This document shows, piece by piece, positions 52,355 to 64,000 of a DNA stretch of 64,000 nt. Source of the stretch: Sycon ciliatum (taxonomy: Eukaryota; Porifera; Calcarea; Leucosolenida; Sycettidae); assembly GCF_964019385.1 (NCBI RefSeq), contig NC_088644.1, positions 19,901,542 to 19,965,541 of the forward strand, given 5' to 3'. The notes beneath the pieces were generated by a model. That model was not told the origin of the DNA, made no database searches, and saw nothing but the letters and a program-made list of their open reading frames with translations. The translations under genes and the position numbers were made by a program. How positions within the stretch are numbered: position 1 is the stretch's first letter; each line of letters opens with the position of its first letter.

Positions 52355-61954
<9,600 letters not shown>

Positions 61955-62213
61955 GGTCACGCTTGGCAGGGTTTTGTGTGGAGCTTGTGTCCGCTCGAAG
62001 GTACGGATTTTCTGCAAAACGTGCAATATGTGTACAAGGTTCATGTCGTATGACCTACAGACAGCAGACCACCTCCACAATACGACCACGAAAGGATGAG
62101 ATAGTGGGGCGCTCTGGCGGTACTTTACGGTAGTAGCAGTGCATGGCTTTAAAGAATTTTACAGTTTGTAAATTCGTCCAGTGCTAAAGGCGTAGTGTGA
62201 ATGAGGAGGATAC

Positions 62214-62335
62214 GCGACAATGTGTCGCTGGATCTCCTTGGCCGGAAGCAAGCTTGTGTGAACCTTGGCTGTCACGTCTGAGAAATAATCCGGCAGCGGC
62301 TTCTTGACAGACCAGTCTAGCGTTGGCGATGGATC
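62214..62335 (-). CDS. LIG3: LIG3 exon: BRCT part 1
   Basis: DPSPTLDWSVKKPLPDYFSD .. EIQRHIV plus GC; donor GTATCC is weak but gives the exact join RHIVA|YGGKV. Confidence 0.82.
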
Positions 62336-62483: not shown

Positions 62484-62558
62484 TGATGGATGGCGGAATC
62501 GGGCAAGGTGTTTCGCATTTGTCTGGTAGCACTTCTCGCCATACTGGCACATTGGCTT
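62484..62558 (-). CDS. LIG3: LIG3 exon: PBZ zinc finger
   Basis: 25 codons holding the whole finger: C-x5-C-x6-H-x5-H with the family's Y-G after the first Cys and F-x-H at the end. Phase 0-0; acceptor AACTCACAG, donor GTGAGT. Confidence 0.88.
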
Positions 62559-62698
62559 CTGTGAGTTAGATACGAACAGAGAACACATACACATACACGT
62601 ACAACGGTACCACCAATGCAGGATATGAGAACAACAAGGTCAGAAACTTGAATGAGACCAACATCATTGTATGAAGTACAGTACTTGCCAAAGAAATC

Positions 62699-62881
62699 CA
62701 ACCTCATGAATAAAGTAGCGCCGGGTGCAACGCAGCCCTAATACTACACATATTGCAGGTCTGTGCACTACGCAGCCCTAATACTACACATACTGCAGGT
62801 CTGTGCACTACGCAGCCCTAATACTACACATACTGCAGGTCTGTGCACTCGAACGTGGTGCTACTTTATTCATGAGGTTGG
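62699..62881. repeat. 22-bp inverted repeats around a 40-bp tandem repeat
   Basis: CCAACCTCATGAATAAAGTA (22 bp in all) at 62699 and its complement ending 62881. Between them about three copies of a 40-bp unit starting ACGCAGCCCTAATACTACAC (62730-62850). In a LIG3 intron. Confidence 0.9.
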
Positions 62882-62952
62882 AATTCTCTGGCCAGAACTG
62901 TACAAATTAAGTGGTACATTAAACCCTTCGCTCTACTTTAAAAAGAACTTAC

Positions 62953-63275
62953 CAAGCGTTTAGCAAACGTTTCATCTTCGCTGTCCTCATCATCCACCTC
63001 ACGCTTTCTCTTTAAAGTTTTAGCCTCGGTGGCACTAGTACTGTCGCTAGCGTCCATTGGTGTGTCGGTCTTGATTGAAGCAGTCGAAGAAGACACCGCA
63101 ATGGCCGCGGCACCAGATGTAGAAGACACCGCAACGGCCGCTGCACCAGATGTAGAAGACGCAGCAACTCCACCTGTTGCACCCCCGTTGAAGGTGAAGA
63201 AGGGAACATCCTCCCCCTGGTCTTCATCTTCATCTGCATCTTTCTCGCCGAGAAGCTTCTTGGTCAATGCCATGT
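62953..63275 (-). CDS. LIG3: LIG3 linker exon
   Basis: DMALTKKLLGEKDADEDEDQ, then repeats AASSTSGAAAVAVSSTSGAA and a basic/acidic end (KRKREVDDEDSEDE). Phase 1 in, 0 out; donor GTAAGT. Confidence 0.88.
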
Positions 63276-63472: not shown

Positions 63473-63503
63473 CATTCTTGGAGCTGGAGACCTGAACAAG
63501 TTT
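63473..63503 (-). CDS. LIG3: LIG3 31-nt small exon
   Basis: KLVQVSSSKN plus one base. Acceptor GCGTCTACAG, donor GTATGT; its length is what makes the neighbours' phases (0 and 1) fit. Confidence 0.75.
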
Positions 63504-63699: not shown

Positions 63700-63846
63700 C
63701 TTCAGCCGGTCAAGGTTAGTGGCGGTGTTCCAGTCCTTGTCATCACGGACGCGCGTGACACGTGGAAATCGAATAGAGATGCCTCCAGCAGTGTGGTGAT
63801 GAGATGTACTGTATTCAGCACCAGTGATTTCCCACACTGGAGATGC
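63700..63846 (-). CDS. LIG3: LIG3 exon with motif VI
   Basis: 49 codons ASPVWEITGAEYSTS .. TNLDRLK; acceptor TGTGTAG, donor GTGAGC, phase 0-0. Ligase motif VI RFPRVTRVRDDKDW. Confidence 0.95.
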
Positions 63847-64000
63847 CTACACACAAGCAGTATAGTGAGAGATTATACAAATGTAAGGCAACATGCTCAT
63901 GGTCTTGTCACCTTTTCCTGCTGATGTCCTCCAGACGTTTTAGAAACGGTGCACATAGAACAGCATCAGCTGGCCGGCAGCAACACATGCGAAGAATGCA

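Follow-up and report, generated by a model that had tools for sequence, protein, structure and literature searches.

The DNA ligase III (LIG3) gene of Sycon ciliatum contains an exon encoding a putative poly(ADP-ribose)-binding (PBZ) finger between the catalytic core and the BRCT domain, and a finger occurs at the same place in the LIG3 of many other invertebrates. We consider it probable that this exon is a real, selected module of LIG3 inherited from an early animal ancestor, and that it serves as a reader of poly(ADP-ribose) (PAR) in parallel to XRCC1. The finger is already visible in the precomputed Pfam annotation of these proteins; no description of PBZ in LIG3 was found in the portions of the open-licence literature searched, and an earlier mention elsewhere is possible. 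Arrival of LIG3 at PARylated breaks is usually credited to XRCC1. An ancestral PBZ in LIG3 would be a concrete route parallel to XRCC1 and would make vertebrate LIG3 the enzyme that lost a module.

The finger is encoded on the minus strand (62558 to 62484) of the window, the 64-kb stretch of S. ciliatum DNA analysed here, which corresponds to C2:19901542-19965541 of the genome assembly. The exon is 75 nt long, has phase 0 on both sides, and is bordered by an acceptor (ctaactcacag before exonic AAG) and a donor (exonic TCA before gtgagt). Its translation, KPMCQYGEKCYQTNAKHLARFRHPS, contains the zinc ligands C-x5-C-x6-H-x5-H, which is the PBZ spacing tabulated previously (PMC6953017), together with Tyr-Gly after the first Cys, an aromatic residue after the second Cys (CQYG..CY), and a terminal F-x-H. 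The earlier note, made from the letters of the window, had described a single in-phase exon at 62484–62558 with this ligand pattern and with the YG and F-x-H hallmarks; the coordinates proved exact and the motif is present in the translation.

Profile searches agreed with this description. Pfam zf-CCHH/PBZ (PF10283) scored 47.9 bits on the exon, 43.4 bits on the spliced C-terminus, and 40.7 bits on the full protein, against a curated cut-off of 22.7 bits, and the top matches of a PDB sequence search with the finger were APLF structures (2kqb, 2kuo; E about 8e-8). An HMM built on 65 fingers of LIG3 homologues, from which the window's own finger was excluded, scored 52.4 bits on the exon. The runner-up among the six-frame segments of the 64 kb scored 6.9 bits, and none of 20 first-order Markov windows exceeded 10.0 bits, which ruled out a chance motif. 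A search of phage sequences gave no match. The assignment to the PBZ class rests on the profile, the zinc ligands, and the aromatic residues, and the reading frame, splice sites, and homologues suggest that the exon is used in S. ciliatum mRNA.

The gene was modelled as 27 exons (2856 nt, 951 aa, with a single terminal stop), of which the PBZ exon is exon 24. The model was built from flanking sequence of the same contig and by tblastn with three homologues; its 5′ exons lie beyond position 64000, and outside the window the splice sites were picked with a simple score, with some junction residues possibly off. The Pfam domain order of the full product was zf-PARP, DNA-binding, nucleotidyltransferase, OB, PBZ, and BRCT. 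The N-terminal zf-PARP finger (81.5 bits) is encoded on the same contig but outside the window, and the ligase domains were DNA_ligase_A_N (PF04675; 113.7 bits), A_M (PF01068; 209.2 bits), and A_C (PF04679; 60.6 bits). The nucleotidyltransferase domain contains AEIKYDGERVQ, in which we take KYDG to be the site of the active lysine. The PBZ finger spans residues 831–856 (40.7 bits) and LIG3_BRCT (PF16759) residues 868–939 (55.4 bits in the full product, 57.6 bits in the spliced C-terminus). The full domain set and the top PDB match of the product, DNA ligase 3 (3l2p; E 1.9e-224), confirmed the gene identity proposed at the outset.

The exons around the finger, all on the minus strand, fit this assignment. 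Exon 21 (63700..63846; VWEITGAEYS..GISIRFPRVTRVRDDKDW; GT-AG, phase 0) encodes the end of the OB-fold/catalytic core and is 70–80% identical to eight of nine compared homologues and 59% identical to the ninth, whose alignment overruns the exon. The linker starts in exon 22 (63473..63503; KLVQVSSSKN; GT-AG, in frame), which is weakly conserved and assigned by position only, and continues in exon 23 (62953..63275; GT-AG, in frame), which is acidic and Ser-Ala-rich with a basic KRKR near its end. A 33-bp in-frame tandem repeat at 63088–63168 of exon 23 yields an 11-residue protein repeat in the linker. The BRCT domain is encoded by exon 25 (62214..62335; first part, with a LIG3_BRCT match), exon 26 (61624..61693; middle part, YGGKVVNGTGAADATHFITEVET; GT-AG, phase 2 in), and exon 27 (61215..61313), in which VTPAWVWDSIK equals the BRCT end of the homologues and is followed by the stop codon TAA. 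The claimed position of the finger was therefore correct, as it lies between the exons for the core end (63846–63700) and those for the BRCT (62335–62214 onward). A BRCT domain cut off by a transposon, with a stop after HIVAY, was rejected because two more exons complete the domain. Similarly, CTVSKTSGGHQQEK near 63950 was rejected as a LIG3 exon; this was a chance frame, and the true exon lies at window-equivalent 64457–64315.

We then compared LIG3 homologues from three lists, each ordered by similarity to its query rather than sampled at random. The C-terminus of the window protein retrieved 59 proteins, many of them fragments; a region search with a coral-like C-terminus, which itself contains PBZ, gave the best 120 of 1297; and a copepod-like C-terminus gave the best 120 of 805. 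Our own HMMs, trained on the same rows, found PBZ after the catalytic core in 65 of the 299 listed homologues (7/59, 56/120, and 2/120 per list) and a macrodomain in 39 (3, 0, and 36); the two modules occurred together in 0/299. Independent Pfam runs covered nine proteins, the window's included, and seven more. A finger peculiar to one species is ruled out by the 65 carriers.

Among the best 120 of 1297, species names were attached to 44 of the 56 PBZ rows, every one an invertebrate (names read by eye), and to 59 of the 64 rows without PBZ, all 59 of them vertebrates. PBZ-containing LIG3 was found in corals and other cnidarians, sea urchins, sea stars, a sea cucumber, a brittle star, a crinoid, the hemichordate Glandiceps, amphioxus, molluscs, the annelid Owenia, the brachiopod Lingula, the centipede Strigamia, and the sponge Ephydatia, and, in the window-query list, in the nematode Oesophagostomum (P0005). 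It was also present in two shrimps whose fingers had escaped the precomputed Pfam list, Palaemon (Pfam 24.1 bits) and Macrobrachium (seen with our own HMM only); a lack of PBZ in crustaceans, as read from that list, was thus wrong for these two. Named rows with neither module among the best 120 of 805 were from a cockroach, locusts, a termite, a cricket, a stick insect, an isopod, a millipede, and vertebrates. In the window-query list, the 13 rows with precomputed LIG3_BRCT divided into four with PBZ (one of them, P0003, cut short), one with a macrodomain, and eight with neither; the sole named row of these eight was an annotation of Geodia barretti (P0008), and the near-identical P0004 has the finger. 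One LIG3-like piece without BRCT (P0055) has two PBZ fingers after the core, and its linker contains QRTLSSFF, presumably a PIP-box-like motif.

The survey of invertebrate LIG3 that the earlier note had suggested thus located the same-place finger in sponges, cnidarians, and other invertebrates, and qualified the note's account: PBZ is indeed missing from all 59 named vertebrate rows, but it is widespread in invertebrate LIG3 and not special to S. ciliatum. Vertebrate DNA ligase III alpha has zf-PARP, DNA-binding, nucleotidyltransferase, OB, and LIG3_BRCT domains in the same order and differs in the absence of PBZ. The further claim that the vertebrate enzyme has only an N-terminal PARP-type finger holds with regard to PBZ, but to deny the enzyme any PAR reader of its own would be too simple, as DNA ligase III is tabulated among PBM-type PAR binders (PMC6953017). 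The Lig3 family has been called vertebrate-only, with spotty older relatives (PMC4488670).

Phylogenetic analysis of 23 full-length LIG3 proteins pointed to vertical descent. The midpoint-rooted tree placed the sponge, cnidarian, and window rows on one side and the bilaterians on the other, with clusters of echinoderms and the hemichordate, of amphioxus and sharks, of lophotrochozoans, and of arthropods; anthozoans and medusozoans formed two separate groups, so that the cnidarians were not one clade. The window LIG3, whose composition was flagged as unusual, adjoined Ephydatia with support of 81/92, which is not decisive. A smaller tree of the core end and BRCT only, in which the window row was a long branch of unsure placement, was superseded by the full-length tree. 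The LIG3 proteins of Orbicella, Nematostella, Ephydatia, Branchiostoma belcheri, and Lingula have the same PBZ-containing architecture as the window product and are 48–50% identical to it over almost their full length. Since PBZ occupies a shared position in LIG3 of sponges, cnidarians, deuterostomes, and protostomes, the simplest explanation would be a single gain before these lineages parted, followed by loss in vertebrates, insects, and other groups.

Within the hypervariable linker, the finger appears as a conserved island. Mean pairwise identity, calculated over well-filled columns of 44 C-termini chosen for having PBZ, was 0.755 for the core end, 0.265 for the linker before the finger, 0.542 for the PBZ exon, 0.156 for the linker after it, and 0.408 for BRCT. 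In a set of 14 rows, the window finger shared 44–64% identity with the other 13, consistent with species differences only. Among the 65 LIG3 fingers, a tally that includes near-copies and Hydra isoforms and leaves out the P0003 finger, which is outside the pattern, 64 retain Tyr at position 3 and 64 the last His, while the Gly and the Tyr at position 8 are each retained in 63. The Acropora finger (P0062) has Gln in place of the last His, which indicates that the finger can decay. All 11 PBZ rows labelled 'lgn', which have no species name, have coding lengths (1287–3153 nt) that fit their contigs (2019–3639 nt), for example 2973 of 3133 nt and, in the least tight case, 1287 of 2136 nt; such lengths leave little room for introns and suggest spliced transcripts, although these rows were selected for having the finger and were judged from lengths rather than from DNA.

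Next, we focused on the residues and the predicted fold of the finger in relation to PAR binding. The published PBZ consensus has a basic pair after the second Cys (PMC4030884, PMC9404506), and the Arg of APLF at the first of these positions is said to coordinate phosphates (PMC6264785). In the window finger this pair is Q-T, that is, not basic, which weakens the case for strong PAR binding; across the 65 LIG3 fingers, the first basic position is Q in 55 and R or K in seven. The AlphaFold2 model of 34 residues around the finger had a mean pLDDT of 77. A Foldseek search with this model returned eight PDB matches, seven of them APLF (three chains) or CHFR (four chains), with E values of 0.2–8 (best 0.22), none at or below 0.001 and none significant alone. 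The short 34-residue model matched APLF PBZ1 (2kqb) with a probability of 0.95 and TMq of 0.66, again at a non-significant E value, and the C-terminal domain of CHFR (2xoc with mono-ADP-ribose, 2xoy with a diadenosine compound) with rmsd of 0.7–0.9 at probabilities of only 0.18–0.35. In zinc ligands, spacing, tyrosines, glycine, and F-x-H, the window finger resembles the PBZ fingers (PF10283) of APLF and CHFR, and its predicted fold is nearest to 2kqb/2kuo/2kqc and 2xoc/2xoy. It differs in residing in a ligase and in having Q-T for the R-K that follows C-Y in APLF, which has two tandem fingers. From the sequence and the predicted fold, we infer that the LIG3 finger binds PAR.

Weak PAR binding, beside other contacts with PAR and DNA, would fit a role in avidity. 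In APLF, a pair of PBZ fingers was reported to exceed a single one in PAR binding by more than 1000-fold (PMC4030884), and PAR is said to recruit CHFR, which has a single PBZ (PMC9404506). In the pathway as established, PARP makes PAR at the break. The N-terminal zf-PARP finger of LIG3 would then sense the nick, the LIG3 BRCT domain would dock on XRCC1, and XRCC1 would read PAR through its own BRCT1. PBZ, on the flexible linker between core and BRCT, may bind neighbouring ADP-ribose units and so hold the ligase at the PARylated site. As an extra PAR contact, it could raise the avidity of the LIG3-XRCC1 complex or let LIG3 arrive alone. Old and widespread among animals, the PBZ of LIG3 most likely reads PAR and, next to XRCC1, helps to keep the ligase at PARylated breaks.

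The genome of S. ciliatum bears on the relation between PBZ and XRCC1. We searched the 538-Mb assembly (313 contigs) with profiles. XRCC1_N exons were found at three loci. On one contig (C10), frames of the plus strand also encode a piece of BRCT1 (XRCC1 2d8m; E 1.6e-11) and a piece of BRCT2 (XRCC1 3qvg; E 2.6e-6); beside this XRCC1-like gene, the other XRCC1_N-like exons lie at C1:24535531 and C2:34037845. Exons encoding zf-PARP on contig C1 are the basis for PARP in this genome. An XRCC1 partner is therefore likely to be present, and the BRCT domain of the ligase, which is of the LIG3 type, is predicted to bind it. These exons, with parts of both BRCT domains, led us to reject substitution of PBZ for an absent XRCC1, and make it more likely that PBZ adds to XRCC1-dependent recruitment than that it replaces it. 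The earlier note's suggestion that PBZ could recruit the ligase without reliance on XRCC1 is a possibility only, given these exons and a LIG3 that keeps its LIG3-type BRCT.

LIG3 has been described as a break sensor that acts without XRCC1 or its own BRCT (PMC4488670). Some reports describe direct contacts of LIG3 with PAR or PARP1 (PMC11624282, PMC10722394, PMC6953017), and mammalian LIG3 is said to interact with both (PMC11624282). Since a different motif already places the mammalian enzyme among the listed PAR binders, PBZ would not be needed for PAR contact, and its loss need not have ended all such contact in vertebrate LIG3 (PMC6953017, PMC11624282). The absence of the finger from the named vertebrate, insect, isopod, and millipede rows likewise counts against our preferred reading.

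We weighed three other explanations of exon 24. It is fairly unlikely, in our estimate, that the exon is a regulated cassette whose in-frame skipping yields PAR-reading and plain LIG3 isoforms. Its symmetric phase-0 structure of 75 nt would allow this, a 228-bp inverted-repeat element lies in the upstream intron about 120 bp away, and splicing at the 3′ end of vertebrate LIG3 is known to give a beta form without BRCT (PMC4488670); the transcript-like rows with the finger do not count against skipping elsewhere, because they were chosen for having it. We regard it as quite unlikely that the finger, though folded and zinc-binding, has moved away from PAR reading and become a knuckle for protein or nucleic acid, or a weak binder of mono- or terminal ADP-ribose. 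The Q in place of R/K in 55 of the 65 fingers favours such a drift, as do the reported resemblance of PBZ to RNA-binding CCCH fingers (PMC4030884), the Pfam zf-CCCH_4 score of 12.9 bits on the exon (below the cut-off) with 7ndj among the Foldseek matches, and the precedent of SNM1A, whose PBZ is missing critical residues and is a predicted non-binder of PAR (PMC9404506). However, the two tyrosines and the glycine hardly vary among the 65 fingers, CYR is kept in Hydra, in the nematode P0005, and in the first finger of P0055, the nearest folds of the model are those of APLF and CHFR, and the corresponding linker of copepod-type LIG3 carries a different ADP-ribose module.

That exon 24 is a chance motif, an unspliced relic, or part of another transcript is hardly credible, given an HMM score far above the chance controls, a phase and splice sites that fit LIG3, and the finger in the corresponding position of full-length LIG3 from many animals. 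A selected, PAR-reading module in LIG3 remains our preferred reading.

The module in copepods differs from PBZ. LIG3 of Tigriopus (P0194) and Lepeophtheirus (P0211), as well as many rows without a species name, has a macrodomain between the core and BRCT; the macrodomain rows among the listed homologues include P0040, P0045, and P0180–P0211. Pfam gave the layout A_C 592–702, Macro 801–909, and LIG3_BRCT 984–1061 for Tigriopus, and scored the Lepeophtheirus Macro at 21.9 against a cut-off of 22 (own HMM, 190 bits). In a 329-aa piece from another copepod, Caligus (P0050), our HMM did not find the macrodomain. The domain is of the TARG1/OARD1 type (query P0040; 2eee, E 1.6e-41). Lys and Asp occupy the places aligned with TARG1 Lys84 and residue 125 in 37/37 macrodomains, by our own reading of the 2eee alignment with a chain numbering offset of 3. 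These 37, of at least 100 aa (the shorter P0025 and P0216 were dropped), are related rows rather than independent cases; four lack the exact core motif, and three of these four (P0212, P0213, and P0214) have no ligase domain in the copepod-query list.

The catalytic pair of TARG1 is Lys84 and residue 125, written as Glu125 in a review and Asp in the sequence, and the enzyme frees acidic residues, and also the phosphates of nucleic-acid ends, of ADP-ribose (PMC7050489). By analogy with this activity, the macrodomain of the copepod ligase might clear ADP-ribosylated ends, and copepod LIG3 is a possible fusion of a ligase with an eraser rather than a reader. We hold, as a tentative reading a little short of an even chance, that ADP-ribose modules can be exchanged within the linker between core and BRCT of LIG3. 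In this reading, the ancestor of sponges, cnidarians, and bilaterians had a PBZ there, which vertebrates, insects, and other groups lost and which copepods swapped for a TARG1-type macrodomain with intact catalytic residues. If so, the copepod macrodomain could remove ADP-ribose from proteins or DNA ends just before sealing, and vertebrates would be the derived case, with PAR reading mostly left to XRCC1 and weaker motifs.

Comparable combinations are known outside LIG3 of animals. Dictyostelium has a macrodomain, not PBZ, in LIG3 and a PBZ in Ku70, where the finger is required for enrichment of Ku70 on damaged chromatin, and thus shares with the present case an ADP-ribose module in a break-repair enzyme (PMC5087659, PMC8529158). 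Ligase K/E of bdelloid rotifers is also a DNA ligase fused to PBZ (PMC6264785, PMC10665377), but it belongs to another ligase family, described as bacterial and horizontally acquired (PMC10665377). PBZ has been noted to occur often together with BRCT, RRM, and RING domains, with no mention of a ligase (PMC4245714).

Several features of the surroundings were also recorded. The 228-bp element (62676–62903), upstream of the PBZ exon in the sense of the gene, consists of 47-nt inverted repeats around three 40-bp tandem repeats. A MITE-like element at 61823–62135, in the intron between exons 25 and 26, has 29-nt inverted ends that match at 97%; its end sequence had no further copy within the 64-kb window. 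On the plus strand, 52355–60040 encodes SRCR and repeated Sushi domains (Pfam) tail to tail with LIG3; an assembly gap of 200 N (54913–55112), shortly after a long CT microsatellite, apparently falls within this gene. A possible transmembrane exon in the plus-strand frame 61550–61954, seen by eye and without a Pfam match, would overlap LIG3 introns and exon 26 in antisense. Elsewhere in the genome, the only other PBZ exon found by the six-frame profile search, in which 25 candidates were scored and which divergent or split fingers may escape, was at C4:17692263 (58.7 bits). An exon of HPF1 (histone PARylation factor 1; 54.3 bits) lies about 3 kb downstream on the same strand (locus pieces L006:4940-5263 and L006:1880-2236, both on the minus strand), so that the two exons probably belong to a PBZ-HPF1 gene.
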